This document shows positions 4,906 through 28,754 of a DNA stretch of 64,000 nucleotides, piece by piece (within the stretch, counting starts at the first letter, position 1; every line of letters begins with the position of its first letter). The DNA lies in NCBI GenBank assembly GCA_016234115.1, contig JACRHD010000025.1, positions 1 through 64,000 on the forward strand, written 5' to 3'. A model generated the notes under the pieces. It was not told the DNA's origin and ran no database searches. It worked only from the letters and a program-made list of their open reading frames with translations. This DNA is from Nitrospirota bacterium (lineage in GTDB: Bacteria; Nitrospirota; Thermodesulfovibrionia; UBA6902). A program made the translations under genes and the position numbers.

Positions 4906-6259
4906 TCATGTCTTGAGGATCGGTCGGGATTTTTTTCCCGTTGGGGTCAAACCGGGTCTCCCACTTCAGCAGAGGCCTTATTACGCCGCCGAGGTCATAC
5001 GCGCAATCAACTCTTGCCGAATCGCCGTCCATACTGTCGATGACCTGAAAGGCCACCGCGTCATCCACCCTGAAGCGGCGGACTTCGGGGTCCTGGGTCC
5101 TCAGCGCGGGTGTGACGTAGAAGATCCCTTCTGCCAGAAAATTTCCCGGGATCCGCGCGGCGGCCGTATACCTTCCGGCGGCGCGCCTGCGCCTGCGCCA
5201 TTCGGGGTCGTTCTCAAAGGACTCAAAGAGCTCCAGGCCTTCTTCATTGACAAGATGAAAATACGCAAACAGGGCGTGCCCCGGCTCGAGGACTTCGTAT
5301 TCCATCTCGATGACGACCGGTTTCCGGATGTCTACCGCGTCCGCAGTCTTCCCGTTCTCTGTTCGCACGCGCACCGCGAGCAGGCGCGCAATATCATCAC
5401 CCGGCGCGTCTTCCGGGTCCGGCCACAGGCGTTCAGCCCTCGTTCCCTTTTCAGAATCCATGTAATAACCGACAACCTTGTGGGACGGTCCGTCCGCGTG
5501 GATCGCCCCCCCTCTCAACAGGACAGTCCTTGGACAGAGTCTCGTAACCGCCTGCATATTATGAGAAACAAAAAGCACTGTTCTCCCCTGCTGTCTGACG
5601 GCGTCCATTTTGTTAAGGCATTTCTTCTGGAACTGCGCGTCACCTACGGCAAGCACTTCATCGATGAGGAGAATGTCCGGCTCCAGATGCGCCGCTACCG
5701 AGAAGGCGAGCCTGACCTTCATCCCGCTGGAATAACGCTTGACCGGAGTGTCGATGAACTTTTCAACTCCTGAAAAATCCACGATGGCGTCGAATTTACG
5801 GTTGATCTCCTTATTCTTCATCCCCAGTATCGTCCCGTTGAGATAGACATTTTCCCTCCCGGTAAGCTCGGGATGAAAACCCGTTCCCACTTCGAGCAGA
5901 CTGGATATCCTCCCGTGAATCTCGGCGCGTCCCCTGGTAGGCCCGGTGATCCTCGAAAGTATTTTAAGGAGAGTGGATTTTCCGGCGCCGTTGGTCCCTA
6001 TGATCCCCACGATCTCTCCCTTTTTTACTTCGAAGGAAACGTCCCTCAGCGCCCAGATAATATCGGACGGGCAGCGGTCCTTTTCAAATATCGAGTCGTC
6101 GAATCTGTAAAGCGAGCGGTGCCTGCGATAATTACTGACCGGATTGCCGATGAAGGAAATTATATTTTTCAGAAGACTGTCGTGCATGTTCTCCTTAAGC
6201 CCGATGCGATAGCACTTGCTCAGATTCTGCACCTTGATTGCGGTTTCCCTATCGTCCAT
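4898..6259 (-). CDS. wzt: O-antigen/capsule ABC exporter, ATP-binding subunit with carbohydrate-binding tail
   Basis: This 453-aa protein powers export of lipid-linked polysaccharide across the inner membrane with Wzm. Walker [10 protein letters not shown] is at residues 88-96, the signature [11 protein letters not shown] near 175, and Walker [13 protein letters not shown] follows. Residues from about 290 form a beta-rich Wzt C-terminal domain, which in characterised homologues recognises the modified non-reducing end of the finished chain. That implies chain length is set by a terminal cap. The start has AGGAGG upstream. It lies downstream of wzm with a short gap and overlaps cysC. Confidence 0.95.
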
Positions 6260-6316
6260 CCCTTTTCCTCCTGTCTCTCCGACGCCTGTCTTCTGATACC
6301 CCGGCCGCCCTCTTCA

Positions 6317-7147
6317 TCATATTACATCCGCGAATATGCGCTCCATCCGTTTGAAGTAGAAGGCCCCGCTTACAATAATAATGATTTCAGTGACTGCGCC
6401 GGGTATGATATAGACCCAGGGGACCGGGGCGCCCAGCAGACAGGCCCTGAACCCTTCTATTACTCCGACAATGGGGTTCAGTGAATAGAAGATTCGGTAT
6501 TGTTCACTTATCGATGAAGCCGAATAAACTATGGGGGCCGAATAGATCAGCATCTGTATTATGAACGGCATGGCATGTTTTACATCGCGAAACCGTATTG
6601 CAAGAGACGACAGCCACAGGCCGATGCCGGCCGGCACGGCCATCATCATTATTGTCAGACAGGGAAATAAAAGGAGGTTCCATGTTGGACTGACGCGATA
6701 ATATAAACAGACCCCTAATATAATGATCATGGAGATGCCGAAATCAACCAGCCTTGACAATACGGGAGTCAGCGGAAATACCAGTCTGGGGAAATAGACC
6801 TTTCCAAGCATTGCATGTCCCGTGACAAGGCTCTCGCTCGATTCGGTCATGGCCTGTGACATATAGGTCCACGGGATGATGGCGACACTCGAAAACAGAA
6901 TGTAGGGAATTCCGTCCGACGACACCCCGGCCACCTTGCCGAATATGACGGAAAAAACCACGATCTGGAAAAGGGGTTTGATCAATGCCCACGAAAAGCC
7001 GAGGATAGTCTGGGCGTACAGGACCTTTACCTGCCGGGTGACAAAGGACAAAAACAGGTCGCGGTACTCCTTCAGCTCCCTGAGATCGACGAATTGCCGG
7101 CCGGGGCCAGGCTCGATAACGGTTATGAAACTTTTTTTTGTTTTCAT
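6317..7147 (-). CDS. wzm: O-antigen/capsule ABC exporter, permease subunit
   Basis: A 276-aa ABC-2 type permease with about six hydrophobic spans and the family's N-terminal amphipathic segment (around YRDLFLSFVTRQVKVLYAQT). LGFSWALIKPL and SLNPIVGVIEGFR are typical Wzm/TagG features. It forms the channel with Wzt for export of undecaprenyl-linked glycan. The ATG shares the ATGA overlap with the upstream gene stop, and GGAGGAG precedes it, so the two genes are translationally coupled. Confidence 0.94.
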   Translation of the reverse strand: MKTKKSFITVIEPGPGRQFVDLRELKEYRDLFLSFVTRQVKVLYAQTILGFSWALIKPLFQIVVFSVIFGKVAGVSSDGIPYILFSSVAIIPWTYMSQAMTESSESLVTGHAMLGKVYFPRLVFPLTPVLSRLVDFGISMIIILGVCLYYRVSPTWNLLLFPCLTIMMMAVPAGIGLWLSSLAIRFRDVKHAMPFIIQMLIYSAPIVYSASSISEQYRIFYSLNPIVGVIEGFRACLLGAPVPWVYIIPGAVTEIIIIVSGAFYFKRMERIFADVI

Positions 7148-8151
7148 GCCTGCTCCTCCGGATCATACCAGTCAAAGCCGTCAACGCATGCCATCCATTT
7201 GCCGTCCCTCAGCCGGCAGGCGTCTATATGATGCATGCCCCCGTTGTTCCATCCGTAACTGCCGGGCGCCACTATGGGTCTTTCATTAAGCCTGACCTCC
7301 CTGTATTTCGTGGGTGAGAGCTCGGCGATCTCAAAGGCATAAACCTGCTTTCCGTAAACGGGAACAACATCCTGCGTAAAGCGAACGGGCCGCCCGTTCA
7401 TGATAATTACCCGGCCCCCGGGCCTTGCAATGTGAGGGTCGGATTTGACGACGGGACTGAGAGGATGTTCGACCCACGGACCCGGCAGCTCTTTGGAATA
7501 ATACAGACTGAGCACGGGAGACATGTAATTTTTTCCCGTGTCCGTCAATATCCACCACATGTCGGCATACCTGAAGATGGAACTGTCCACGATGCGACGG
7601 CCGCTTATTAATTTGCCCATGCATGACCATTTTTCAGGGAAACTTTCAGCCCTGTAAAGGCTTACTCCTCCGCTTTTCCACGCTTCAGGCAGCATGTAGT
7701 ATTCTCCCTGCCATTCAAATACATACGGGTAGGACAAATGAAAAGGCTCGGCAAGAACGATCCGTTGATACCCCCATCTCAGTCCGTCGGCGCTCACGGC
7801 CAATCCTATCTCGCCTTTATTATTGTCCCGGCGTTTTACTTCGAAAAACATATACCAGGCATTGTCCTTTAAAAACATGAACGGATCGGCAATGTAATAC
7901 GCCTTAATATCGGATATGTCTTCATGTGTAAGCACCGGATTTGCCGCGCCCTCCGCCGGGGTAATGGAAAGAGGCGAGTCTCCGCAATAAATCCCGATCG
8001 ACCACCTCTGCTTCCTTTCGGCAACGGGAGGCCGCTTATTATTTTTTCCCCATAAAAGTCTTCTTAGACGTCTGCCTGCCATTTTCAGAATGTCTTGCAT
8101 TCCCGGGGCCTTCTGCATTGTGAGGAAGGAGCTGTAAAAAAGTTTGAGCAT
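7144..8151 (-). CDS. Glycosidase-fold (GINT1-N-like) glycan enzyme
   Basis: This 335-aa protein has the five-bladed beta-propeller sequence style of GH43-like and GINT1 N-terminal domains: IADPFMF near residue 90, then MFFEVK, YPYVFEWQGEYYMLPE, and a late GWNNGGMHHIDAC segment. Such proteins are common in O-antigen and lipooligosaccharide clusters, often beside transferases. No signal peptide is evident, so it probably acts in the cytoplasm during glycan assembly. The first 30 residues are poorly conserved in style and the true start could be an inner ATG. Its stop overlaps wzm by 4 bp. The specific reaction is unknown. Confidence 0.7.
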   Translation of the reverse strand: MLKLFYSSFLTMQKAPGMQDILKMAGRRLRRLLWGKNNKRPPVAERKQRWSIGIYCGDSPLSITPAEGAANPVLTHEDISDIKAYYIADPFMFLKDNAWYMFFEVKRRDNNKGEIGLAVSADGLRWGYQRIVLAEPFHLSYPYVFEWQGEYYMLPEAWKSGGVSLYRAESFPEKWSCMGKLISGRRIVDSSIFRYADMWWILTDTGKNYMSPVLSLYYSKELPGPWVEHPLSPVVKSDPHIARPGGRVIIMNGRPVRFTQDVVPVYGKQVYAFEIAELSPTKYREVRLNERPIVAPGSYGWNNGGMHHIDACRLRDGKWMACVDGFDWYDPEEQA

Positions 8152-8154
8152 ACT

Positions 8155-9396
8155 TTAATGAATTATCGACTCGCACATCCGGGTAAATCTTCGGACCCAC
8201 AAATTTATGTCGTATCCCGTGACTGCATTTTCACGACAATTACCGGCCATCGACTCGTGCAGGGCGCTTTCTTTAAGGAGCCTGAGAATGCCGTTGCGGA
8301 AATCTTCCGCGCTCTCGGGCTCGGCAAGATATCCGGTAATGCCGTGGCGGACGTGGTCTGTAACTCCGCCGACCCGAAATGATACCACCGGTGTGCCGCA
8401 TGCCTGGCTTTCGATCGATACCAGACCCAGGGTTTCAGCCCTTGTCGGGAACAGCAACAGGTCGGCAGCGGAAAAACAGGCCGCTTTCTTCTTATGTTCG
8501 CCTATGTATCCAAGGGTCAATGTCGGGACCTCGAGGCATTGAGAGATAGTTTCATCGCCTCTTCCCATAACCAGGAGCAAAATTTCAGCTTTCAATGATC
8601 GGGGCAGACCGTTCAGGGCTCTTATCAGAATATCACCGCCTTTCAGGCGGTCATTGAGCCTGTCGGCCACAAATAGAAGGACCTTCTTGCCAGGATGGAT
8701 TCCAAGCTCGGCGCGGCATTGTTCCTTGTCAAGAGGTTTATAAGTTTCCGTGTCTATCCCGTGAGGGATCTGATATATTGGGAAACGGTTGAGAATACTG
8801 TGCCTTACCTGTTCCGTCAGCCACCTGCTTGTAGTGACGATCGTAAGGTTTGAGTTACGATACGCGCGCTTCTTAAGGAGCCATTCCAGACGTGTCGCGT
8901 CTCTTCTTATCGCGGGCTGGATATCGGGTTTCGGACATTTACCGCAACCGGTCTTCCAGCGTTCGCAATCCAGACTGTGAAAACAATGTCCGGTAAAACT
9001 CCACATACTGCATATCGTAAATACCGCCGGCCTTGTCCGCGACAACTCGGGAAAGGCAAAATATGAAGCAGTGCCGCGCGCAGTATTGAAATGAAGTATA
9101 TCAAAATCCATTTGTTTCACATTTCTGACAAATGCCGCCGAAATCAGGCCCGGCGAGTGACTTAATCCGATGAGCTGCGCGATTTTTTGAGACAATCCGA
9201 AATATGCCTGTCCGAGCTTATTGCGCCTTAAATCCAGTCTGATAATTTCATTGGGCCCTTTTATCAGGGCGGAGTGTTCTCCATTGCACGCGGCAAGAAT
9301 ATTTGAATTAATGCCCGCCTTTCTCAGGGCGCGGTGGGCATCTATAAAAATAGAATCAGCGCCCAGAATTCCCGGAAGTATGTGCAGTATCCTCAA
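8155..9396 (-). CDS. GT4-family glycosyltransferase
   Basis: A 413-aa GT-B fold transferase. The N-terminal Rossmann half starts MRILHILPG, and the C-terminal half contains the EX7E element in PTRAETLGLVSIESQACGTP. NDP-sugar binding residues precede it in the LLFVADRLNDRLKGG segment. It would add a sugar to the lipid-linked glycan on the cytoplasmic face. The only reasonable start is a TTG at 9396 with a weak GGGGTATAG ribosome site. It is 3 bp from the downstream gene, within the export operon. Confidence 0.9.
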   Translation of the reverse strand: MRILHILPGILGADSIFIDAHRALRKAGINSNILAACNGEHSALIKGPNEIIRLDLRRNKLGQAYFGLSQKIAQLIGLSHSPGLISAAFVRNVKQMDFDILHFNTARGTASYFAFPELSRTRPAVFTICSMWSFTGHCFHSLDCERWKTGCGKCPKPDIQPAIRRDATRLEWLLKKRAYRNSNLTIVTTSRWLTEQVRHSILNRFPIYQIPHGIDTETYKPLDKEQCRAELGIHPGKKVLLFVADRLNDRLKGGDILIRALNGLPRSLKAEILLLVMGRGDETISQCLEVPTLTLGYIGEHKKKAACFSAADLLLFPTRAETLGLVSIESQACGTPVVSFRVGGVTDHVRHGITGYLAEPESAEDFRNGILRLLKESALHESMAGNCRENAVTGYDINLWVRRFTRMCESIIH

Positions 9397-9428
9397 GCTC
9401 TATACCCCTGCGTCATCCCGGCGTCACA

Positions 9429-10766
9429 TTAAGCGCACGGTTGCCCGTCTTTTAATAACCCGGCCTTCAGTAAGGCATCCGAGGCCGCGTGTATGATATT
9501 GAATTCCATTCCCGCTCTCTCCGCAATATCCAGCAGACTGTGCCGCCCGTCCGACATGTTCAGCAGCCACAGCAGGGCCATCCGGTCCGCAGCCGCGTGA
9601 CTCTGTCCGCCTGTTGAGGCATACAGCCCCCTGCTGCCCAGTTGCGGTTCGCATTTGGGATTTGTATTGATATATCTCCTGTTGTTCTCAAGCACGTTGA
9701 GGACCGACAGATATTTAAGGAATGAGTCCGTAAGGTGCTCGGGCCTGACAAGATCGCAGTTGTCGGCCGAGGTGTGATATTCAGGATACTCCCCATGCGG
9801 TGTACGCTGCAGGCACCCGACGGGGAGGTTGAAACCGGGCGAGCAGTATTGCCTCTCGTCATAACCGTACGGCGAAAAATCGACCACGCGGTACAGGCCG
9901 CCTGAATGCTTCAGCACGTGTTCGACGGCCCTGTCGATCTCCGCGTTCCCCTGTCGGCTCCTTTTGTATGTGGACATGCCGGGGTCGCCGGCGGCAGTGA
10001 CTACCAGGCCGTGCCGGATGTTTTTTACGGCCTCTTCGTTCAGGGAAAGCCAGGTTATGGAGCCTATGGTGCCCGGTATGAAGAGGATACGGTATGAATA
10101 ACGCAAAGACAGAGAGCTCAGTCGCCTGCCGAGTAACGCCGTCAGGACCATGCCGGAAACGTTGTCGTTGCACAGCGACGGATGGCAGGCATGGCATGAC
10201 AGCAGAAATTCTTCCGGCGTTTGTCCCCTGAGATAATATTCCCCGTAGGTAAGATGACCGTCCCTGAGAGAGGAGTCGATATGCACTTCATACATGTCTT
10301 CCCGGAGCCCGGAGAATTTCCTGTGAGTCATGCAGAAGCCCCAATCCTCCTTGTAGTATGAAGTCCTGTACGGTATCCAGTCCGGGCGTTCAGGCAATGT
10401 GTGCAGATGTTCTCTCAATTTCGACAAAGGCATCTTTTCATGGACAGGGACGCTGTAGCCCATAACGTGCAGGTTGGACTCATTGAAATCTATTACCTTC
10501 TCGCCGCTTGAATTCCTGACGTATGCGTCCCTGATATTCCACTCCCTGGGCACTGTCCAGTCAAACACCCTGGTGCCGGTCGGCACTTCATGCACTGTCA
10601 GCGGCATATATTCGGAGATGATTTTCAGGCTCTCCCTGAAACCGTCTCCGGTGATGCTCCTGCAGATGGGGAACAGCCTTGTCATCAGTGCGGTCATTTC
10701 CCTGAAAAGCCCCTGCATGTCGGGGACCTTTCCGGTCCCGTTTCCAGTGAAGGCAATTTTATTCAT
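9429..10766 (-). CDS. DUF4910/DUF2172 aminopeptidase-like protein with winged-helix tail
   Basis: A 445-aa protein of the M28-like DUF4910 group. The core holds HACHPSLCNDNVSG (candidate metal ligands H and D) and a late segment DERQYCSPGFNLPVG followed by RTPHGEYPEYHTSADN. The C-terminal 70 residues look like a winged helix. Members recur in polysaccharide loci, often next to C-methyltransferase and 3,5-epimerase genes as here, so a role in sugar modification or deacylation is possible. In PGTIGSITWL a glycine occupies a position where I would expect an acidic residue in an active M28 peptidase, so peptidase activity is doubtful. Confidence 0.8.
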   Translation of the reverse strand: MNKIAFTGNGTGKVPDMQGLFREMTALMTRLFPICRSITGDGFRESLKIISEYMPLTVHEVPTGTRVFDWTVPREWNIRDAYVRNSSGEKVIDFNESNLHVMGYSVPVHEKMPLSKLREHLHTLPERPDWIPYRTSYYKEDWGFCMTHRKFSGLREDMYEVHIDSSLRDGHLTYGEYYLRGQTPEEFLLSCHACHPSLCNDNVSGMVLTALLGRRLSSLSLRYSYRILFIPGTIGSITWLSLNEEAVKNIRHGLVVTAAGDPGMSTYKRSRQGNAEIDRAVEHVLKHSGGLYRVVDFSPYGYDERQYCSPGFNLPVGCLQRTPHGEYPEYHTSADNCDLVRPEHLTDSFLKYLSVLNVLENNRRYINTNPKCEPQLGSRGLYASTGGQSHAAADRMALLWLLNMSDGRHSLLDIAERAGMEFNIIHAASDALLKAGLLKDGQPCA

Positions 10767-10790
10767 AGCGCAAAGGGCAGAGAGTTTCGC

Positions 10791-11324
10791 CTACGGCAAT
10801 TTGTAATCCGGATAGTGACGGTCCCGTTCCGACATGACCTTCACCTCGGCAGGCCACTCAACGGACAGGGCCGGATCATTCCACCTCACCCCGCGCGCCC
10901 GCTCGGGGTGATAAAACTCGGACATCTGATAGAAGACTTCGGTATCGTCTTCGAGGGTAAGAAAGCCGTGCGCGAACCCTTCGGGCACATACAGCATCGT
11001 CCTGTTTTCTCCGGAAAGCACCACGGGGAGCCACTGCCTGAAGGTCGCCGAGGCGGGCCGCAGATCTACGATCACGTCATAAACGCTCCCCCTCGTGCAC
11101 CTGATCAGTTTTGTTTCCGCATTTGGAGCGGCCTGGTAATGCATCCCCCTTAAGGTCCCTCGCTCCTTATTAAATGATATGCTGCATTGCGCCGGGGTCG
11201 TGACCAGACCATGCATTTCAAACTCCTTCCAGCACCACGTGCGCGCAAAAAACCCCCGCTCGTCCTCGAGTCTCTCCGGCTCGATTATATAAGCCCCTTT
11301 TAATTTCGTCTCCGTGAAAAGCAT
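10791..11324 (-). CDS. rfbC: dTDP-4-dehydrorhamnose 3,5-epimerase family protein
   Basis: A 177-aa cupin of the RmlC family. The catalytic histidine lies in RGMHYQ near residue 62 and the catalytic tyrosine region is EVFYQMSEFYHPE. RmlC itself epimerises C3 and C5 of dTDP-4-keto-6-deoxyglucose. No rmlA, rmlB or rmlD is in the window, but a C-methyltransferase lies 4 bp upstream and rfbF in the same operon. The substrate is therefore more likely a C-methylated 4-keto sugar on CDP, as with TylCVII-type epimerases. That substrate choice is inference. Confidence 0.88.
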   Translation of the reverse strand: MLFTETKLKGAYIIEPERLEDERGFFARTWCWKEFEMHGLVTTPAQCSISFNKERGTLRGMHYQAAPNAETKLIRCTRGSVYDVIVDLRPASATFRQWLPVVLSGENRTMLYVPEGFAHGFLTLEDDTEVFYQMSEFYHPERARGVRWNDPALSVEWPAEVKVMSERDRHYPDYKLP

Positions 11325-11328
11325 CCTG

Positions 11329-12570
11329 TTAAAGGACCGCCACCTCGGGAATTAGGACCACGAACTTCCCGCCCCACGCGCGAATATGAGACATCTGCCT
11401 CATGATCTCATCCTTGATGTTCCATGGAAGAAGGACCAGATAATCGGGTCTGCTCTCGCTGATTTTGTCCGGATGATATATCGGTATGCGCACGCCCGGC
11501 AGGAAGCGCCCCTGCTTGTGGGGGCTGCGGTCTACGGTATAATCGATGAAGTCCGTTCCGACGCCGCAGTAGTTCAGGAGGGTGTTGCCTTTGGCGGGCG
11601 CCCCGTATCCGGCCATGCTTTTCCCCCGCCGATTGTCGTCGATCATGAAATTCAGGATGTTCCTCTTTGTCTCCTTCACCTTTTCGCCGAACGACAGATA
11701 GCTCTCCAGCTTCAAAAACCCTTTTCCCCTTTCCCGTTCGGCAAGGTCGCCTACCCGTGCCTCGACGGGCCTTGAGCCGTCCTCCGCATGACATGCGTAT
11801 ATTCTCAGTGAGCCGCCGTGTGTCGGCAGCTCCTCAACGTCGAATATCTTCAGACCGTGCGCCGCAAATATTCTTCCTGCGGTCATAAAGGAAAAGTATG
11901 AGAAATGCTCATGATAGATGGTGTCGAACTGGTTCTCCTCCATGAGCTGCATCAGATGCGGAAACTCCATCGTCACAATCCCGCGCGGCTTCAGGATGAT
12001 CTTCATGCCTCTGACAAAGTCGTTCAGATCAGGCACGTGGGCAAGCACATTGTTGCCCACAAGGAGGTCCGCCCGGACGCCCTCCGTAAGCGCCAGCTCT
12101 GCGGCGGTCTTCGCGCCGAAAAATTTGACCACTGTCGGGATCCCCGCCCTTTCGGCGGCGCAGGCTACATTTACCGCAGGCTCGACCCCGAGGACCGGGA
12201 CCCCTCTTTGTTTAAAGTATTGAAGGAGATACCCGTCGTTGCTTGCGATCTCGACAATCAGGCTGCTCCCGTCAAACCCGAAACGCTCGGTCACCATGCC
12301 GGCATAGTCTTCAGCGTGCCTGAGCCAGGATTCGGAATAAGAGGAGAAGTAAGCGTAATCGCTGAAGATGGCTTCAGGGGATTCGAACACGGGCAACTGG
12401 ACCAGAAAACATTTCCCGCAGACATACGTGTGCAAAGGATAATAAGGCTCCATTTGACAAAGCTGTCCCGCTTCCAGATATGAATTCGCCATCGGCGACA
12501 TGCCGAGGTCCACGAAGGTCGTCTCCAGCGCGGACCCGCAAAATCTGCACTTATGATTATTGCCGTTCAT
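11329..12570 (-). CDS. NDP-4-keto-sugar C-methyltransferase (TylCIII-like)
   Basis: This 413-aa protein has three parts: an N-terminal zinc-binding segment (CRFCGS near residue 8 and CGKC near 51), a class I SAM-dependent core (IVEIASNDGYLL, and GNNVLAHVPDLNDF as the acidic loop), and the C-terminal Rossmann-like domain of this family (GYGAPAKGNTLLNY). YHEHFSYFS matches the catalytic Tyr/His-Glu/His region of sugar C3-methyltransferases. It would methylate C3 of a 4-keto-6-deoxy nucleotide sugar. It is tightly packed between the aminotransferase and epimerase genes. Confidence 0.9.
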   Translation of the reverse strand: MNGNNHKCRFCGSALETTFVDLGMSPMANSYLEAGQLCQMEPYYPLHTYVCGKCFLVQLPVFESPEAIFSDYAYFSSYSESWLRHAEDYAGMVTERFGFDGSSLIVEIASNDGYLLQYFKQRGVPVLGVEPAVNVACAAERAGIPTVVKFFGAKTAAELALTEGVRADLLVGNNVLAHVPDLNDFVRGMKIILKPRGIVTMEFPHLMQLMEENQFDTIYHEHFSYFSFMTAGRIFAAHGLKIFDVEELPTHGGSLRIYACHAEDGSRPVEARVGDLAERERGKGFLKLESYLSFGEKVKETKRNILNFMIDDNRRGKSMAGYGAPAKGNTLLNYCGVGTDFIDYTVDRSPHKQGRFLPGVRIPIYHPDKISESRPDYLVLLPWNIKDEIMRQMSHIRAWGGKFVVLIPEVAVL

Positions 12571-12604
12571 AACTGTCCGGAAATTAATAACATAGACCTA
12601 TACA

Positions 12605-13513
12605 TTATGAGGCTGAAAAACATGACAACTCCACAAAGGGATGAGGCATGGTCCCTTTAACGGCCTGGAAATATCTGTCCTGCAGGGCGCGCAGGACCGG
12701 CGGTTCTTTATGAAGCGGCAGGCCCTCGACCTCCCTGATCAACGTCACTTCGGCCAGGGTCCCGCAAATTGCGATCTCGTCGGCCACAAGCAGTTCGGTC
12801 CGGTCAATCGGGCGGCGGAAAAAATCGATTCCGAGCGAATGCGCCAGGGCTTCCACTATGTCGACGGTTATGCTTTCAAGCGCTCCTTCAGTCGCAGGAG
12901 GCGTATAAACGGCCCCGTCGCGGACGATAAGTACGCAGGAACCGGTGGCCTCGGCGACACGGCCCCACTGATTGAGAAGGACCATATCCTCGCACCCCCT
13001 GGCCCGGCCTTCGATCCTTGCGAGACGGCCTGCCTGGTAGTTGGTGCTCGTCTTGATCCTGGCGGGCAGAGACACGTCGGCGCTGCGCCGCCAGGAGCTC
13101 ACGCCGAGATTGATGGATTGGGGTATCTGCTTATTCTGGTGATAAGCGGTCACGACCAGGTCGGCTACCGTGTTTTCGCCCCAATGCCCCTCGATTACAT
13201 AAAGGGTCGTACGCGCCCACATGTCCCTGTCCGGCTCAAGCAGCGCCCCCATAAGGTCGCGGACGGCCTTCACGTATTCATCATAGGTCTGATTGAAGGG
13301 GATGTGCAGCAGCCGGGCGGACCGGCGGAGCCTCTCGTAATGCTGACGGAGTTTAACGATGCCGAAACTTCCGTCAGGCTGCCAGTATCCCTTGAGCCCT
13401 TCAAACACGTTCAGACCGCGGGTCACGGCCTCGCACCCCACATGCAGCGTCGCCTCATCCCAAGGTCTGAGCCTTCCTCCCATATAGACGAACTTCGGTC
13501 TTTGCAGTTGCAT
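12605..13513 (-). CDS. Class IV PLP aminotransferase (branched-chain type)
   Basis: A 302-aa fold-type IV enzyme. The Schiff-base lysine is likely in RIKTSTNYQAG, and EATGSCVLIV plus ELLVADEIAICGTLAEV match the PLP phosphate-binding elements. ATG 13513 is chosen because CAGGAGG precedes it and it overlaps the SDR stop by one base (TGATG); an earlier start would overlap the SDR by 51 bp. Sequence alone suggests IlvE-type transamination, but the location inside a nucleotide-sugar operon and the tight coupling raise the possibility of a dedicated role in glycan decoration. Confidence 0.85.
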   Translation of the reverse strand: MQLQRPKFVYMGGRLRPWDEATLHVGCEAVTRGLNVFEGLKGYWQPDGSFGIVKLRQHYERLRRSARLLHIPFNQTYDEYVKAVRDLMGALLEPDRDMWARTTLYVIEGHWGENTVADLVVTAYHQNKQIPQSINLGVSSWRRSADVSLPARIKTSTNYQAGRLARIEGRARGCEDMVLLNQWGRVAEATGSCVLIVRDGAVYTPPATEGALESITVDIVEALAHSLGIDFFRRPIDRTELLVADEIAICGTLAEVTLIREVEGLPLHKEPPVLRALQDRYFQAVKGTMPHPFVELSCFSAS

Positions 13514-14598
13514 CACTTTTGCCTCCTGACTGTTGATTCTACTCCGGACATCCTGCCCGCCCATTCAAGGTCCTCCGTCAACAACCCCTGTTCCCTCAAA
13601 CTCGTCAGCGCCTTCAGTCTCATGAAACCGGAGCTCCTGAAGTTCCCGTCCCTGAAATTCATGGCCTCCAGGCCTTCTTTCAATTCCTTAATGGCCTGCG
13701 CGAGGCCGACCGACGGCTGATATTGCGGGGCCAGACTCCTGAACAACCCGAAGCCCACCCTGTAAGAGCGCTTGTCCGGCTGTGCGTTTCCGTTTATCGA
13801 AACTTCCACGCCGGGGATGAGGGACGCCACGGCCCCGGCAAGTTCTCCGACCTGATAATTCCACTCATCGCTGCCGACGTTTACGGCCAGGAAATCCCCT
13901 CCGTTTTGCGCTTCTCCCGCAACCGCCCAGTCCACCGCCTTCGCCATGTCCTTGATATCGATCAACGGTCTCCAGGGCGTGCCGTCGCTGAGGATGGTGA
14001 TCTTTCCGGTCGATACCGCCCCTGCGACAAAATCATTAAGGACCAGGTCCAGTCGAAGACGCTCGCTCATTCCGCAGGCCGTTGAAAACCTGAGAGATGT
14101 TACCCTGAAGCGGCCGTCGGCGAGCAGTTTCAGGTCTCTCTCTGTCGCGACCTTCGATTTCGCGTACGCGGTCAGAGGGTTGAGCGCGGAATCCTCAGTC
14201 CTCGGCCCGTCGTCGGCAGCCCCGTACATGCTGCAGCTCGAGGCGTAGACGAAATTCTTCACCCCCGCTTCTTTCGCCTTTTTTGCCAGGGCGATGCTCG
14301 CGACGTGATTAATGTCGTAAGTGACCTTCTCGAATGTATTGCCCATCGGATCATTGGAAATCGCGGCCAGATGCACTATGGAATCCACACCTTCAAGCAC
14401 GTCGGTCGAAAGATTCCTTACGTCCATAAAATATTGAGTGTCCACCCTGCACTCGGGCAGGACCGCGGCATTCGTCAAACAGTTCGCAAAATATCCCATA
14501 TCGAGTCCGGCCAGTAAAGCGTCGGGGTAAGATGACCGCAGTCTTTGTACTACTGCGGGACCGATATAACCCATATTGCCGGTAATCAGTATTTTCAT
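13513..14598 (-). CDS. Extended SDR, NDP-sugar epimerase/reductase
   Basis: A 361-aa extended short-chain dehydrogenase. The nucleotide site is TGNMGYIG at the N-terminus, the catalytic serine segment is YASSCSMYG, and YAKSK is the YxxxK pair. SSCSMYG-type SDRs commonly accompany RfbF and sugar C-methyltransferases. The enzyme may reduce or epimerise the 4-keto group of the CDP-sugar, or supply the 4,6-dehydration that is otherwise missing. AAAGGAG precedes the ATG. The last 50 residues after the SDR core have no clear counterpart and overlap the BCAT-like gene by one base. Confidence 0.88.
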   Translation of the reverse strand: MKILITGNMGYIGPAVVQRLRSSYPDALLAGLDMGYFANCLTNAAVLPECRVDTQYFMDVRNLSTDVLEGVDSIVHLAAISNDPMGNTFEKVTYDINHVASIALAKKAKEAGVKNFVYASSCSMYGAADDGPRTEDSALNPLTAYAKSKVATERDLKLLADGRFRVTSLRFSTACGMSERLRLDLVLNDFVAGAVSTGKITILSDGTPWRPLIDIKDMAKAVDWAVAGEAQNGGDFLAVNVGSDEWNYQVGELAGAVASLIPGVEVSINGNAQPDKRSYRVGFGLFRSLAPQYQPSVGLAQAIKELKEGLEAMNFRDGNFRSSGFMRLKALTSLREQGLLTEDLEWAGRMSGVESTVRRQK

Positions 14599-14613
14599 GA
14601 CTTTTCTCCTTTA

Positions 14614-14817
14614 ATCCGGATTATTCATAAACTCCAGGAGGTATGATTGAAAAACATGTTGCTGCAATACCTTGGCCGGAATTTTCGCGTTGTGTAAAAA
14701 GTACACTCTGTAAAAGCAATAACTTAAATAGCGAAAAGTCCTTACAAATAATCTCATTGCTTTGAAGATGTTTTTCAATCATGCCTCCCGCAGTACGATA
14801 TTCGTGAATAATCCGGG
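14614..14817. repeat. Imperfect inverted repeat pair between SDR and rfbF genes
   Basis: Arms at about 14614-14658 and 14767-14817 are inverted copies. Both contain CCGGATTATTCA and, after 13-19 unlike bases, GGAGG(T/C)ATGATTGAAAAACAT, which matches at 21 of 22 positions. The 108-bp interior is AT-rich with no convincing gene. The arms fill most of the space between the rfbF stop and the SDR ribosome site. It could be a small transposon-like relic or a long hairpin in the operon mRNA. Confidence 0.65.
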
Positions 14818-14831
14818 TCAATACTCAGCCG

Positions 14832-15605
14832 TTACCATACCTTCCAGGGCGCCCCCCCGGAATTCCACAGACCTTCAAGCTCATATTTATCTCTTAAGGT
14901 GTCCATGGGATGCCAGAACCCGTAATATTTATAAGCGGACAGATTGCCTTCGTCAGCCAGGTTCCGCATCGGTTCCTGCTCCCATACCACAGCGTCGTCC
15001 TCAATATACTCCATCACCCCCGGCTCCAGCACGAAAAAGCCCCCGTTTATCCATGCATCGTCGCCGTCGGGCTTTTCCCTGAAACTCGCTATCTTTGATC
15101 TCTCGTCATTGATTTTTATGACGCCGAACCTGCCGGGGGGCTGGACGGCCGTTACAGTGGCCAGGGTCTTTTGAGATTTATGAAACTCGACCAGTTTCAC
15201 AATATTGATGTCGCTCACCCCATCTCCGTATGTGAAACAGAACGTCTCGTCTCCGACATGGTCTTTTATTCTCCTGAGACGCCCGCCGGTCATCGTCTGT
15301 TCACCCGTGTCGACCATCGTGATCTTCCACGGCTCCACCCCGTTTTTATGGATGTCGATTCTGTTGCTTTGAAGGTCGAGGGTGACGTCCGCCGCGCGCA
15401 GAAAGTAGGTGGAAAAGTATTCTTTAATCATATATCCTTTGTATCCGCAGCAGATGATAAAATCGTTGATGCCGTATGCCGAGTAGATCTTCATGATATG
15501 CCAGAGGATGGGTTTTCCGCCGATCTCCACCATCGGCTTGGGTCTGATAGTTGTTTCTTCGGAGAGTCGTGTGCCCAACCCTCCGGCAAGGATTACCGCC
15601 TTCAT
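14832..15605 (-). CDS. rfbF: Glucose-1-phosphate cytidylyltransferase
   Basis: A 257-aa nucleotidyltransferase that makes CDP-glucose from CTP and glucose-1-phosphate. It begins MKAVILAGGLGTRLSEET with the RPKPMVEIGGKPILWHI segment, and TYGDGVSDIN holds the metal-binding aspartate. WINGGFFVLEP and the YGFWHPMDTLRDK end are hallmarks of RfbF rather than RmlA. Length is typical. GAAAGGAG lies upstream. It should start the CDP-sugar branch encoded by the genes below it; the usual partner, CDP-glucose 4,6-dehydratase, is not seen in the window. Confidence 0.95.
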   Translation of the reverse strand: MKAVILAGGLGTRLSEETTIRPKPMVEIGGKPILWHIMKIYSAYGINDFIICCGYKGYMIKEYFSTYFLRAADVTLDLQSNRIDIHKNGVEPWKITMVDTGEQTMTGGRLRRIKDHVGDETFCFTYGDGVSDINIVKLVEFHKSQKTLATVTAVQPPGRFGVIKINDERSKIASFREKPDGDDAWINGGFFVLEPGVMEYIEDDAVVWEQEPMRNLADEGNLSAYKYYGFWHPMDTLRDKYELEGLWNSGGAPWKVW

Positions 15606-15847: not shown

Positions 15848-17929
15848 TTATATTTGCCGCCTCTCATTCAACGTCTTTCCGTTGTTAAAGTCCGGCAATA
15901 TCCGCTGCAGGGCGGGGACAATGCCGTCTACCGAATAATTCCTGACTATGCGCTCAAACTCCGCAATGCAGCCGTCAAGGTCGGCTGTCGGAGCGGGCTG
16001 AGGGACCGCTATCCTGAGCTTTTCATGAATGGAGGGAATCATTGTTTCCGACTTGTCAAAAAGCTCTTCATACATTTTCTCTCCGGCCCGCAGTCCCGTA
16101 CACTGGATCTTGATCTCCCTGTCCGGAATAAATCCCGCGAGTCTTATGACGTTTTCCGCAAGGTCCATTATCTTCACGGGCTTGCCCATGTCCAGCACGA
16201 ATATCTCCCCCCCGTTTCCGACGGACGCCGCAAGCAGCACAAGCTGGACCGCTTCGGGAATGAGCATGAAGAACCTCTTCATATCCGGGTGCGTTACCGT
16301 CAGGGGCCCGCCCTTGCTCAGTTGCTCCTTGAACAGGGGGACGACGCTCCCGCTGCTGCCCAGGACGTTTCCGAACCTGACGGTCTTGAATTTCGTGCCG
16401 GAAGTCGAGTTTTTCATTACCGTCAGAAACTCGGCCACCCGCTTGGTCGCCCCCATGATGCTTGACGGGTTTACCGCCTTGTCGGTCGATATCATCACGA
16501 AACTCTCAGCACGATATTTCGCTGTAATATCGATAAGATTTTTTGTCCCGAGAATATTGTTCCTTACGGCTTCGACGGGGTTGTATTCCATCAGGGGCAC
16601 ATGTTTGTGGGCCGCGGCATGAAAGACAAGTTTGGGCCTGTATATTGAAAATATGTGATCCATCGTCGGGGCGTCGCTTACATCTCCTATAACCGGCACG
16701 ACGGCGCTCCGGTGTTTCCCGTTGCCGTTGCCGTTCTCCGCCCTCAGCTCGACGTCTATGCCGAACAGGCCGTTTTCATACCGGTCAAGCATTACAAGCT
16801 CCGAGGGGCCGTACTTCAATATCTGTCTGCAAAGCTCCGAGCCTATCGAGCCCCCGGCGCCGGTCACAAGAATGGATTTGTTCTCGATATAATTTCTGAC
16901 CGATTCAATATTTGTCCTGACCGGCTCTCTCTGAAGAAGGTCTTCGACTGAAATCGGTTTCATGTGAGAGATGCCGAACTGCTTCTGGAGAAATGAGACG
17001 AGCCTGTCTTCGGAAATATACCCGAGCTTTACAAGCTTGGACCCGAGCCTCCCACCTTCCTTCTTTTGCAGTTCCAGCGCCTGCTGCACTTTTTCTTCGG
17101 TCACCAGGCCGGCGTTTATCAGTTGCTGCCCGAACTTCGCGGCCGACGCTATGTTGCCGTCAATTATGTCGTTTATTCCCGGCAGCCTTTTAATCGGGAT
17201 ATTGTAAGACTTGCTCAATTCGTAAATCTTCCTGATATTGTCGTTGTTCCTTGAAGAGATGGTGACAAGGATTTCATCGGGATAAAATGTTTCGATAACA
17301 TAGGGGATCATGCTTATGGGTCCGAATATGGGCATACCGTGTACAACGAGCCCTTTTTTATACGGGTCGTCGTCGATGAAGCCTATCGGATGATATGCCG
17401 ACTTCGGATTGTTTTTTATGTCCTTCGCGATCTTCACCCCCGCGTCCCCGGCGCCGACCACAAGAATTTTCTTTCCGGAATGCCGTGAGTTCAGGTACTC
17501 TTTAAACACAGTTATAAAAAGCCTGCTGCTGCCTGAAAAGATAGTAATAAGCAGAAGGTCGATCACATATACCGAGCGGGGATATGGCGCGCTTCCCGTA
17601 AAAATTGTATTTGAAACGGCGAATATTATACTTCCGGCAGTCATGAATTCTATGATTCTGACGATGTCGCGGAGTCCCGAATAACTCCACATGTCCCTGC
17701 AGAGACCTCCCTTGATATACAGGGAAAGACGTATCGCGAGGAGAAGGGGCAGGCTGTGCAGAAACACGCCCAGATGACCGTTCAGGGTAATGGAGTCGAG
17801 CCTGATCATAAACGCCAGATAGTTGGCCAGCGCGGTTTCAAGGAGATGAACAATAGCGACCGCGACCCGCCTGTTTCCGACAATGAGATCTTTAAAAAAT
17901 TGATATATGTGTTTCGAAATCTTGCTCAT
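15848..17929 (-). CDS. PglF/CapD-type NDP-sugar 4,6-dehydratase with MshEN-like insert
   Basis: This 693-aa protein has about four membrane spans (residues 20-140), a CoA-binding-like Rossmann domain (VVGAGDAG at 157-164), an unusual insert (265-320), and a C-terminal SDR with VTGAGGSIGSE at 355-365 and STDKAVNPSSIMGATK at 481-496. The latter carries the Asp-Lys pair and the methionine that replaces tyrosine in PglF-like 4,6-dehydratases. It likely makes UDP-4-keto-6-deoxy-GlcNAc or a relative at the inner membrane. The insert fits the two-repeat cyclic-di-GMP-binding MshEN pattern, suggesting allosteric control. Family members are normally about 600-640 aa, so the extra length matches the insert. 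Confidence 0.93.
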   Translation of the reverse strand: MSKISKHIYQFFKDLIVGNRRVAVAIVHLLETALANYLAFMIRLDSITLNGHLGVFLHSLPLLLAIRLSLYIKGGLCRDMWSYSGLRDIVRIIEFMTAGSIIFAVSNTIFTGSAPYPRSVYVIDLLLITIFSGSSRLFITVFKEYLNSRHSGKKILVVGAGDAGVKIAKDIKNNPKSAYHPIGFIDDDPYKKGLVVHGMPIFGPISMIPYVIETFYPDEILVTISSRNNDNIRKIYELSKSYNIPIKRLPGINDIIDGNIASAAKFGQQLINAGLVTEEKVQQALELQKKEGGRLGSKLVKLGYISEDRLVSFLQKQFGISHMKPISVEDLLQREPVRTNIESVRNYIENKSILVTGAGGSIGSELCRQILKYGPSELVMLDRYENGLFGIDVELRAENGNGNGKHRSAVVPVIGDVSDAPTMDHIFSIYRPKLVFHAAAHKHVPLMEYNPVEAVRNNILGTKNLIDITAKYRAESFVMISTDKAVNPSSIMGATKRVAEFLTVMKNSTSGTKFKTVRFGNVLGSSGSVVPLFKEQLSKGGPLTVTHPDMKRFFMLIPEAVQLVLLAASVGNGGEIFVLDMGKPVKIMDLAENVIRLAGFIPDREIKIQCTGLRAGEKMYEELFDKSETMIPSIHEKLRIAVPQPAPTADLDGCIAEFERIVRNYSVDGIVPALQRILPDFNNGKTLNERRQI
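16970..17137 (-). other. MshEN-like cyclic-di-GMP-binding module within the dehydratase
   Basis: Residues 265-288 and 294-317 form two 24-residue motifs separated by exactly five residues. Both fit R-L-G-x2-(LVI)2-x2-G-(hydrophobic)2-x4-(LVI)-x3-L-x2-Q. The second is exact except for tyrosine in the first hydrophobic position after G303; the first has K265-F266 in place of Arg-Leu. This is the known signature of MshEN (GspE N-terminal) domains, which bind cyclic di-GMP in MshE. The insert lies between the two Rossmann domains, where ordinary PglF/CapD proteins have a short linker. Binding is inferred from the motif. Confidence 0.8.
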
Positions 17930-18501: not shown

Positions 18502-20688
18502 TCAGATTTGTTCGGCAGGCGTCCCTTTTTCCGGCCTGCCCGGCAAATAAGCCTTATGGTAGTAGGTGTAACCATACTTCGAACCGGCGCCGACCCCGTT
18601 GATCAAAACGCCGAGGACATTCGCCTTCACCCCGTCAAGGGCCCTGTAGGTCTGCGTCAACGCGTCTCCCGGCGTGCTGCCGGCCCTGACCACTACTATT
18701 ACGGATTCAACAAAGGCGGAAAGGATCAGGCTGTCGGATAGACCCAGGATCGGCGGAGAATCGATTATCACATAGTTGTATGTTGCTGACAGCGTATTTA
18801 TGAGATCCTTCATACGCGATGAATTCAGGAGTTCGAAAGGATTGGGCGGCATCGGACCGCTCGTAATGACGTCCAGTCCTTTAATGGACGACTTTCTGAT
18901 CGTCTCATCAAATCCCGTGAACCCGGAAAGAAATGTGGAAAGTCCTCTGGAATTATCGAGATTAAGAAGGGTATGCACATTAGGCCTTCTGAAGTCCACA
19001 TCGACAATTATTCCGTTTCCGAGAAAACCCGCGAGACTCTTCGCGGTATTTACGGACAATAGCGTCTTGCCCTCTCCCGGCAACGGGCTTGTGACCAGAA
19101 TCTGCTTCGGCAGGTTTGAATCTTTGGTGAAGCGTAGATACGCGCCCAGAGACCTGAAGGCTTCTGTAAAGAGATCATTGTTGTTCGACCTGACGTAGGT
19201 AATCTCCCTCGGGTTAACCTTCGAGACGGGGACCATGCCCAGCACCGGCAGCGAAGACCTCTTGACTATGTCATCGGGCGTCTTAACTGAGCGGTCGAAA
19301 TATTCAACAAGGAAGGCGATGAATGCGCCGCCAAATAAACCCAGGATGACGGCCAGCGCGGCATTGACTGCTTTTTTGGGTCTGAAAGGGGACCCCGGCA
19401 CCCGCGCCCTGTCAAGGACCTGTACGTTGCTTTCAGCCAGCGCCGCGCTGACGCCGACTTCTTTCAGTCTCTGCAGCAGACCGTAATAAAGTTCACTGTT
19501 CGTATCAACGTCCCTCTTCAATATCTGTATCTGGACCACCTTGTCCTGCAGGAGAGCGGCTTCCCGGCGAAGTTTTTCGATTGCGGAAGAAAGATAGTTT
19601 TCCTTTTTCAGGGCCAGCCTGTAGTCGGAACTCAGGGTATTGATCTTCTTTTGCTCCTCTGTTTCTATTCGTTTTTTCAGCGCGTCAATCTGCTCATTGA
19701 GGCGGACCATCCTGGGATATTGGGGCTTGTGTATTTGCAGGAGATTGAAATAATCCGTCTCCAGTTTTATATAGTCCCTGGTAAGCGACTGTATCAGCGG
19801 GTCCTGTATAATAACGCTGTAATCAACACCTGCCTTACTGATTTCCTGATAGACCGATTCCTTTGATATCCTTTCGGCCACCGCCGTATTCAACTCTCTG
19901 GAAAGGGCTGAAATCCTTTCTGAAATTGAATTGTCATAGACATTATCTTTACTGATCAGGTAGATTTGATTTTTAGTTATGTAGCGGTTTAACTGTTCTT
20001 CCGATGCCTCGAGTCTGGCCTTCATTTCAGCGACCTCTTTTTCAAGCCTCCGTTTTGCCTCCTGTGTCGGATTGAGTCTGTTCTCAAGCGTATATGCAAT
20101 GTATTCGTCGGCGACCGTATTGGCGACAAGGGCCGCCATTACGGGATCGGGAGATTCAAAACTGACGTTGACAAGCTGGGATTTTTTTACCGGCTCGACT
20201 ACGAGCTCCTTCATGAGGACTTCCGACGAAATGTCCGTATACTCTGAAGAGACAAGCATGCTGCGGTCCAATAATTCAGGGACCCTCTTTGTATTTAGAG
20301 TGGTTATGACCCGTTCCGCAAGATTTCTGCTGTTCAATATTTTGTATTGAGTTTCATCATAATCGTCGGCAGACAGGCTTTCAAGATAGAACTCCTTAGT
20401 AATGTTGGGGCTCACATTTCTTATCTGAAGGGTCGCAGTCGATTGATATACCGGATCCATCAAAAAAGATGCGAGCATTGCCGTTATGAAGACAAAGACA
20501 AGAAAAGCGAGAACAATCCATTTCCTTCTGATCAGTATCTCGATATAGTCGCTCAGGTGAGGTTGTTTGTCTTCGTCTTCAAAATAGACCTTCAGATTCG
20601 GGGCCGGAGGGATGTCTCTTTCCGTCGCCGGCAACGGCCCGGACCGCACTCTGACGGCCTTCTCCAGGCTGTCTTCGATTTTGTTCAT
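18502..20688 (-). CDS. wzc: Polysaccharide co-polymerase with tyrosine autokinase domain (Wzc-like)
   Basis: A 728-aa inner-membrane protein that sets chain length and drives polysaccharide secretion. It has an N-terminal Wzz domain with a first membrane span near residue 60, a long periplasmic coiled coil, a second span near residue 450, and a cytoplasmic BY-kinase. Walker A is SPLPGEGKTLLS, Walker A' IIVDVDFRRPN, Walker B YVIIDSPP. The C-terminus carries a tyrosine cluster (YGYTYYHKAY) for autophosphorylation. ATG 20688 is preferred to a TTG 69 bases upstream that lies within wza, but neither has a strong ribosome site. It follows wza closely. Confidence 0.93.
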   Translation of the reverse strand: MNKIEDSLEKAVRVRSGPLPATERDIPPAPNLKVYFEDEDKQPHLSDYIEILIRRKWIVLAFLVFVFITAMLASFLMDPVYQSTATLQIRNVSPNITKEFYLESLSADDYDETQYKILNSRNLAERVITTLNTKRVPELLDRSMLVSSEYTDISSEVLMKELVVEPVKKSQLVNVSFESPDPVMAALVANTVADEYIAYTLENRLNPTQEAKRRLEKEVAEMKARLEASEEQLNRYITKNQIYLISKDNVYDNSISERISALSRELNTAVAERISKESVYQEISKAGVDYSVIIQDPLIQSLTRDYIKLETDYFNLLQIHKPQYPRMVRLNEQIDALKKRIETEEQKKINTLSSDYRLALKKENYLSSAIEKLRREAALLQDKVVQIQILKRDVDTNSELYYGLLQRLKEVGVSAALAESNVQVLDRARVPGSPFRPKKAVNAALAVILGLFGGAFIAFLVEYFDRSVKTPDDIVKRSSLPVLGMVPVSKVNPREITYVRSNNNDLFTEAFRSLGAYLRFTKDSNLPKQILVTSPLPGEGKTLLSVNTAKSLAGFLGNGIIVDVDFRRPNVHTLLNLDNSRGLSTFLSGFTGFDETIRKSSIKGLDVITSGPMPPNPFELLNSSRMKDLINTLSATYNYVIIDSPPILGLSDSLILSAFVESVIVVVRAGSTPGDALTQTYRALDGVKANVLGVLINGVGAGSKYGYTYYHKAYLPGRPEKGTPAEQI

Positions 20689-20725
20689 ATGATCTGCCTG
20701 ATGTCCTGTCTTCAGAGGAATGCTG

Positions 20726-21796
20726 TTACAGTCCTGCGCCGATCTCGGCGCTTCCAAGGGATATCATCCCTCTGAAAGTCCTGACAAAGCCGCTGAAAAA
20801 CTCTTTCACCCCGCTTTTGGGAACGATTATCACGTCTTTGTCCTTTAAAATAATGTCAGGTGTCTTTTTGCTTAAAATAGCATCGTAATCGACATCCATG
20901 ATCTCCATAGCGTCCGTGCCGGAATTTCTATAAAGTTTCAGTTCATCGCTTATTGCCACGCTGTTAAAACCTTTCGCCATCGCAATGACCTGTGTCAGGG
21001 TGACCGTCCCCTTCATCGAGAACGCCCCGGGGCCCTTCACGGCGCCGTCCACAAATACAACACCCCCGCGCGGCACATTGATTATATCTTCGGCGAGGAC
21101 CGGGATGTTGAGTTTGGGGTCGCCTTTCATGAGCAGGTCGTTCAGGTTTATCACTATAGTTTCGCTTCCCCGCCGGACATAACATATGTCCCCCGCGTCC
21201 TCCGAGAGTCCGCCCGAGGCGGACAATATGTCAAGCAGAAATTTCTGGCGCGTCACATTAATCGTCTGCGGGGTCTTGACGGCCCCGAGGACCGTGACCC
21301 TTTGACTCCTGTATTCCTTTATTACTACAGTAACTATAGGCTCCTGGAGATATTGCTCGAGCCTTCTGCTTATCTCCGCCTCAAGCTCCGCTACGGTCAA
21401 TCCCGCGGCCGTTATGTCGCCCAGGAGAGGCAGTTTCAGCAGGCCGCCTAAACCGATTCTCGCGGTCCGTTTCAGTTCATCGACCTGATAAACGTCTATT
21501 TCAAGAAGGTCCTCGGGCCCGAGAATATAATCAGTTAAAGGGGCAGTCTTGATCGCCTGTTCCAGCAGCAGGGAATTACGCTTGTCGAGCCCGGACCCCT
21601 CCCCCGCATTACCCGGAATAACAGCTGGTTTTGCGGTATCGGCGCTGCTGCAGGAAAGCGCGCTGAAACAGATCAAAATTGCAGCGAGACTTGTCAGCGC
21701 CCTCGCTGACGACAATAAATGATTCCCACGGGTCGTCATCCCGGCCGTCCCGGCAAAAAAACTGTTTCGCCTTGATAACAATAATAATATTGACAT
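20726..21796 (-). CDS. wza: Polysaccharide export outer-membrane lipoprotein (Wza-like)
   Basis: A 356-aa protein with a signal peptide ending in a lipobox-like FSALSC, then the polysaccharide export (PES) domain (DYILGPEDLLEIDVYQVDEL) and SLBB-type soluble ligand-binding domains (VTVLGAVKTPQTINV and VFVDGAVKGPGAFSM). It forms the outer-membrane pore working with Wzc. ATG 21796 has a weak AGAG site; the in-frame ATG at 21739 would give a more usual signal-peptide length. The gene is the first of the minus-strand glycan run, and the long region upstream may carry its control elements. Confidence 0.93.
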   Translation of the reverse strand: MSILLLLSRRNSFFAGTAGMTTRGNHLLSSARALTSLAAILICFSALSCSSADTAKPAVIPGNAGEGSGLDKRNSLLLEQAIKTAPLTDYILGPEDLLEIDVYQVDELKRTARIGLGGLLKLPLLGDITAAGLTVAELEAEISRRLEQYLQEPIVTVVIKEYRSQRVTVLGAVKTPQTINVTRQKFLLDILSASGGLSEDAGDICYVRRGSETIVINLNDLLMKGDPKLNIPVLAEDIINVPRGGVVFVDGAVKGPGAFSMKGTVTLTQVIAMAKGFNSVAISDELKLYRNSGTDAMEIMDVDYDAILSKKTPDIILKDKDVIIVPKSGVKEFFSGFVRTFRGMISLGSAEIGAGL

Positions 21797-28690: not shown

Positions 28691-28754
28691 CCAGTAAATG
28701 AGGGCGCTACGACTGGCACATCCGGACCGTTTAATGGTATCTTTAAAATATCCC

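Follow-up and report, generated by a model that had tools for sequence, protein, structure and literature searches.

An MshEN_N subdomain inserted in a PglF/WbpM-type nucleotide-sugar dehydratase of Nitrospirota, a candidate point of cyclic di-GMP control over sugar precursor supply

In the literature consulted, cyclic di-GMP control of surface glycans acts at synthases, as in the case of NfrB. How Wzx/Wzy-dependent glycan assembly is regulated is little understood, and the N-terminal domains common to PglF-type dehydratases and large phosphoglycosyl transferases have been called puzzling (PMC10942596). The stretch of DNA analysed here, referred to as the window (64,000 nucleotides of contig JACRHD010000025.1 from a Nitrospirota bacterium), raises the question of whether cyclic di-GMP could also act on an enzyme which makes an activated sugar precursor, since the initial annotation had read one of its genes as a PglF-type dehydratase interrupted by an MshEN module.

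The 693-residue product of this gene is a PglF/WbpM-type dehydratase, in which the SDR fold, the catalytic signature and both the membrane and the CoA-binding-like regions are present (Table 1). The full-length AlphaFold2 model places the membrane helices at residues 20-44, 50-73, 86-111 and 118-146, and its best Foldseek matches are the PglF entries 5bju-5bjy, with 44% identity over the catalytic part; residues 324-685 can be aligned with the crystal chain 5bju of C. jejuni PglF at an E-value of 3e-90. TDK-x7-M-x3-K is the fingerprint given for PglF and WbpM (PMC8987622), and in the alignment the signature residues of the window protein coincide with T395, D396, K397 and M405 of PglF (PMC8987622). 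The PF02719 match, the crystal-chain alignment and this signature thus uphold the enzyme assignment, and both Pfam and the AlphaFold2 model locate the insert where it had been claimed to lie, after the membrane/CoA-binding-like region and before the SDR domain. No GT2 domain was found by Pfam in the protein, which separates it from glycosyltransferase-MshEN proteins of the NfrB type. The substrate would be UDP-GlcNAc, although this is not certain, because a cytidylyltransferase-type gene adjoins in the window operon.

Table 1. Features of the dehydratase, of its locus and of the transferase-fused relatives (window coordinates, except for the loci named L065 to L080).
Feature	Residues	Coordinates	Strand	Basis or remark
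PglF/WbpM-type membrane nucleotide-sugar 4,6-dehydratase with inserted MshEN_N	1-693	15848..17929	-	693 aa ORF
N-terminal helical membrane region	~17-146	17492..17881	-	as in WbpM, PglF, WbaP; AlphaFold2 model and PMC10942596
CoA_binding_3 / DUF Rossmann-like domain	128-246	17192..17548	-	Pfam PF13727, 1.4e-8
Inserted block, ~58 residues	~262-319	16973..17146	-	missing from unfused homologues (alignment, tree)
MshEN motif I, KFGQQLINAGLVTEEKVQQALELQ	265-288	17066..17137	-	NF053729 match
Spacer, exactly five residues	289-293	17051-17065	-	
MshEN motif II, RLGSKLVKLGYISEDRLVSFLQKQ	294-317	16979..17050	-	NF053729 match
SDR dehydratase domain Polysacc_synt_2	353-640	16010..16873	-	PF02719, E 1.7e-114
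Catalytic signature TDK-x7-M-x3-K	482-496	16442..16486	-	sequence and PglF alignment
Wzz/Wzc-like chain-length protein with tyrosine-kinase-like domain		18502..20757	-	upstream of dehydratase
Wza/OPX polysaccharide export protein		20726..21796	-	upstream
Downstream glycan genes		4898..15605	-	same-strand locus
Downstream set, part 1				NTP-transferase (own reading: glucose-1-phosphate cytidylyltransferase type), SDR epimerase, class IV aminotransferase
Downstream set, part 2				C-methyltransferase, RmlC-like epimerase, DUF4910 protein, GT4, GINT1_N protein
Downstream set, part 3				ABC permease, Wzt-like ATPase
Transferase-fused dehydratase, L065		4507-7290		
Transferase-fused dehydratase, L066		861-3668		
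Transferase-fused dehydratase, L067		4504-7293		
Transferase-fused dehydratase, L069		4552-7278		
Transferase-fused dehydratase, L071		4459-7275		
Transferase-fused dehydratase, L080		2-2743		

The assignment of the insert as MshEN_N is solid by profile, by sequence and by predicted fold. In fact, the NCBIfam model NF053729 (c-di-GMP_motif, MshE-related) is matched over positions 1-53 of 53 by residues 265-317, with 58.0 bits against a cut-off of 38 (E 5.8e-16, whole protein), and the two 24-residue motifs with their five-residue spacer are exactly as first described. The earlier statement that both fit the MshEN pattern holds for the profile over all 53 positions, but less well for the strict published pattern. 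Of the 11 fixed positions of this pattern motif I keeps 8, having K in place of R and F and V each in place of L, while motif II keeps 10, with Y where L/V/I is expected. A phmmer search with the insert retrieves MshE (5htl) at 1.8e-9 together with PilB/PilF, and a profile made from 26 inserts finds the same set (PilF at 9.7e-24, MshE at 3.3e-12); the start of TIGR03029, the profile of EpsG-type chain-length tyrosine kinases, also matches residues 263-323. Pfam MshEN PF05157, on the other hand, has no match in the 693-residue protein, so that a profile search succeeds with one model and not with the other. Since the PilB-type genes of this genome have their PF05157 match directly downstream of that of NF053729, PF05157 describes the C-terminal subdomain MshEN_C, and its silence was rejected as evidence against MshEN. 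What is present is therefore the binding subdomain MshEN_N only, MshEN_C being absent and the catalytic part following directly, and the module originally proposed has to be narrowed accordingly. Its range has to be shifted as well, from 16970-17137 (residues 265-320) to the block missing from unfused relatives, at about residues 262-319 (16973-17146).

The predicted structure agrees with this reading and with the expectation of an MshEN-like fold. AlphaFold2 models the insert with short flanks as four helices (11-23, 29-42, 46-53 and 58-68), with pLDDT of about 72-85 in the core and low confidence in the flanks; these helices recur when the full-length protein is modelled. When the model of the insert is compared with the PDB by Foldseek, the first eleven matches are without exception MshE/PilF GSPII-B domains with cyclic di-GMP bound, at an rmsd of 0.9-1.5 Å over 53 residues and 34-43% identity; their E-values (0.018-2.2) are weak because the query is short, the best probability is 1.00 and nothing else ranks higher.

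Whether such a subdomain could still bind its ligand can be judged from the contact positions, which were mapped onto MshE (PMC5013675) and counted over 31 fused proteins. The glycines G267 (MshE G11) and G296 (G40) are invariant, and Q288 (Q32), L295 (L39) and L314 (L58) are each kept in 30 of the 31, followed by L285 (L29; L in 28), L310 (L54; L in 26) and R294 (R38; R in 25). The remaining positions vary more: K265 (R9) is K in 25 and R in 6, F266 (L10) is L in 19, I in 10 and F in 2, V281 (L25) is V in 14, I in 9 and L in 8, and Q317 (Q61) is Q in 22, with H, K, T, D or P in the other nine, while the turn glycine of motif I is Asn in 18. As to whether the motif persists where the insert does, these counts are mostly favourable, with the glycines and the 30-of-31 positions on one side and the final Gln, lost in nine, on the other. 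Taken together, no part of the insert is as well conserved as the ligand-contact positions, with a column entropy of 0.64 against 1.47 for random insert columns (permutation p 0.001). The window copy retains both Gly, both Gln and most Leu of the contact set, F266 and V281 standing in for Leu, and these two replacements might weaken its binding of cyclic di-GMP. K265 is no obstacle, since the consensus has been widened to (R/K/L)LG and PilF GSPII-B, with Lys in motif I, binds with a Kd of 6 nM (PMC11731258); in one orthologue (L053) motif I reads R-L-G. Moreover, the isolated MshEN_N of MshE, without MshEN_C, binds cyclic di-GMP at 0.35 µM (PMC5013675). Binding of cyclic di-GMP by the insert is likely.

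The same architecture recurs outside the window. The deduplicated set comprises 31 fused and 17 unfused proteins, one fused member (L082, from Anammoxibacter) having been added by eye from the alignment; 29 of the fused proteins, the window's own included, belong to Nitrospirota, to the class Thermodesulfovibrionia wherever group codes are given, and two to anammox Planctomycetota. Of 101 genomes searched, 12 have the fused region (again with the window's own), as do 21 of 396 across the phylum, the latter all of the window's class. A scan of 84,980 species genomes, which used two exact peptide patterns that distant fusions may escape, placed the fusion in Nitrospirota/Thermodesulfovibrionia and in Ca. 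Scalindua and Ca. Anammoxibacter; in the class of the Scalindua genome it occurs in 3 of 75 genomes (L063, L082 and L144, the last a third Planctomycetota copy found later and lying outside the tree). The insertion point is identical in all 31 proteins, between GN(V/I)xx(S/A) and (H/Q)(M/I)KP(L/I)SLEDLLQRE, and 12 close homologues without the insert read ...GN(V)(T/S)-VSQIRPLSLEDLLQRE... in the alignment, the block of about 58 residues being cleanly missing, so that relatives with a short linker only do exist, as had been stated. Additional domains considered for two longer proteins, L113 (782 aa) and L124 (798 aa), were rejected, as they look like upstream extension of the open frame.

In a tree built without the insert columns, a single branch separates the fused proteins from the others (ultrafast bootstrap 88, SH-aLRT 85; in 88% of bootstrap trees), and a single gain of the insert is therefore favoured. 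The two Planctomycetota proteins, L063 and L082, branch with Nitrospirota proteins, which suggests horizontal transfer. PilB-type MshEN of the same class is up to 66% identical to the insert, and a donor of that kind may be guessed. The insert is under purifying selection: of the nine pairs for which codon comparisons could be computed, eight give a dN/dS of 0.05-0.15 and one gives 0.29, similar to the neighbouring domains; its mean pairwise identity (57%) is above that of the preceding DUF region (52%) and below that of the SDR domain (71%). An assembly chimera, contamination or a chance motif, for which it may be said that the sources are mostly metagenome-assembled genomes, was rejected as practically negligible, since the same open frame and junction recur in 31 distinct proteins from separate assemblies, the profile score is far above its cut-off and dN/dS stays far under 1 both within the insert and on either side of it.

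Regarding genomic context, the dehydratase belongs to a same-strand glycan locus (Table 1), in which the DUF4910/DUF2172/HTH_47 protein is encoded at 9429-10766 and the GINT1_N-domain protein at 7144-8151, both on the minus strand. Pfam and NCBIfam found no MshEN in the neighbouring Wzz/Wzc-like protein, and no cyclic di-GMP riboswitch or other Rfam RNA was detected in the window at the gathering threshold. Cyclic di-GMP is probably made in the cell, since the genome has 20 GGDEF matches, besides 14 PilZ matches; GGDEF genes are present in both Planctomycetota genomes tested. Among the scanned genes of the window operon there is no phosphoglycosyl transferase, and the six that the genome has all lie on other contigs. 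Elsewhere among the fused loci, the dehydratase has as neighbours a Bac_transf phosphoglycosyl transferase (directly upstream in many) and a DegT-type aminotransferase. Furthermore, in six proteins of 909-939 aa a Bac_transf-type transferase is fused in frame, N-terminal to the PglF-MshEN dehydratase (profile-confirmed for L067), and this fusion is a feature of one subclade.

Some further observations were made on these loci. In several families of the class, the fused dehydratase repeatedly has genes for NusG-like (RfaH-type) proteins and NtrC-type response regulators next to it (at 1221-1898 and 7298-8620 in L064, with equivalents in other fused loci), and the L082 locus has the order Wza-Wzc-PglF-cytidylyltransferase, like that of the window. 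A second PglF-type dehydratase of the same genome, L091 (G000 contig C1, 68152-69000), is without insert, and a Bac_transf gene, L104 (C1 70136-70705), lies close to it. Elsewhere in the window, an HSP90/gyrase-B-like ATPase-domain gene (28698-31762, plus strand) overlaps a radical SAM gene, with alaS adjoining, and a HepT-like protein is encoded at 23058-23501 on the minus strand.

On the whole, the explanation which accounts best for these data, and which is held to be rather more probable than its rivals together, is that the inserted MshEN_N binds cyclic di-GMP and that dehydratase output or coupling follows its level. The 53-residue subdomain would have entered, probably in a single event, where the CoA-binding-like (DUF) domain passes into the catalytic SDR domain. 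Its two motifs would together bind one cyclic di-GMP, as they do in MshE and PilF, and binding would alter how the membrane/DUF part and the catalytic part are placed relative to each other. Dehydratase output, or the coupling of the enzyme to the next one in the membrane, would then follow the cyclic di-GMP level, most probably upward. Such a ligand-driven change is the most likely mechanism because the insert joins the dehydratase to the DUF, which in WbaP mediates dimerisation and has been proposed to regulate the catalytic domain (PMC10942596), and because in PilF GSPII-B a helical turn is unwound and the subdomains take up a new orientation when the ligand binds (PMC11731258). By analogy with NfrB (PMC8669469), activation appears more likely than inhibition. 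That cyclic di-GMP controls the dehydratase or its assembly is a well-founded proposal, put forward with moderate confidence. The stricter proposal, that it allosterically gates the synthesis of the activated sugar precursor and that in one subclade a single polypeptide would put precursor synthesis and glycan-initiating transfer under one signal, is tentative and somewhat short of even.

Catalysis need not be affected, since the catalytic region of WbpM retains full activity when the N-terminal region is missing (PMC8987622), and assembly or docking is for this reason the main rival. MshEN_N could bind cyclic di-GMP without acting on catalysis, setting instead the location or the partners of the enzyme, for example by docking to a phosphoglycosyl transferase or through recruitment by a diguanylate cyclase, and so channelling precursor at high signal. 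The transferase gene directly upstream in many fused loci and fused in frame in six proteins, the dimerisation role of the DUF adjoining the insert and the independence of WbpM catalysis all speak for this possibility, which is a serious alternative, though clearly the less likely one; against it, the window operon has no such transferase among its scanned genes, with the six copies on other contigs, and the insert is directly joined to the catalytic domain.

Less probable still is that the insert is a former MshEN, now a structural spacer or docking surface which no longer binds cyclic di-GMP, as XpsE (PMC5013675) or PilF GSPII-A (PMC12002112), documented members of the family that do not bind. 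PilF GSPII-A shows that minor changes may suffice to abolish binding in a domain which keeps its fold (PMC12002112), and deviations are seen here in the loss of the final Gln in nine proteins, the Asn at the turn glycine in 18, and F266 and V281 of the window copy. The degenerate insert of L082 has a two-residue deletion in the spacer, an Arg at the first Gln and Gln residues lost, yet it has been retained. Such a loss of function is opposed by the contact positions, which are the best conserved of the insert, and by the two glycines, which never vary; nor does the window copy show the multiple losses known from XpsE (PMC5013675).

If the allosteric gating by cyclic di-GMP were true, the control point would move from the polymerase to precursor supply. 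A receptor domain within a sugar-nucleotide dehydratase, in several families of one class, would show control before the lipid carrier is committed. Moreover, the insert sits exactly where the catalytic part joins the DUF, which belongs to the N-terminal domains called puzzling in PMC10942596, and the contrast between proteins with and without insert, the degenerate L082 and the transferase-fused copies make the idea directly testable in vitro.

Compared with known systems, this is a known domain in a known enzyme, in a combination apparently undescribed: no description of MshEN with a PglF-type dehydratase was found in the literature, an earlier listing in the supplementary domain tables of PMC5013675 being possible. 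WbaP-type large phosphoglycosyl transferases have the four-helix membrane region and the DUF in common with PglF-type dehydratases (PMC10942596), but their catalytic domain is another one and they lack MshEN. PglF of C. jejuni (5bju) and WbpM of P. aeruginosa share with the window protein the membrane region, the CoA-binding-like domain and the SDR domain with TDK-x7-M-x3-K; they are without MshEN insert, and cyclic di-GMP control of them was not found in the literature. The start of the EpsG-type profile (TIGR03029) fits the insert, but belongs to a kinase and not to a sugar-nucleotide enzyme; MshEN has been reported in exopolysaccharide biosynthesis of Methylobacillus (PMC5013675). With MshE of V. 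cholerae (5htl) and PilF GSPII-B (8pdk) the insert shares the 53-residue, two-motif, four-helix unit with its glycines, both Gln and most leucines, and differs in the lack of MshEN_C, in K-F-G of motif I and in V281; in addition, their MshEN lies in the N-terminal part of a pilus or secretion ATPase, whereas the MshEN_N of the window lies inside an SDR-family enzyme. A functional parallel is NfrB of E. coli, a glycosyltransferase-MshEN protein which binds cyclic di-GMP with a Kd of 1 µM and whose glycan needs both functions (PMC8669469). In both cases MshEN is joined to a membrane glycan enzyme, and the glycan output of NfrB is controlled by cyclic di-GMP; NfrB, however, is a polymerising synthase with a C-terminal MshEN, while the window enzyme makes an activated sugar precursor and carries the domain internally.
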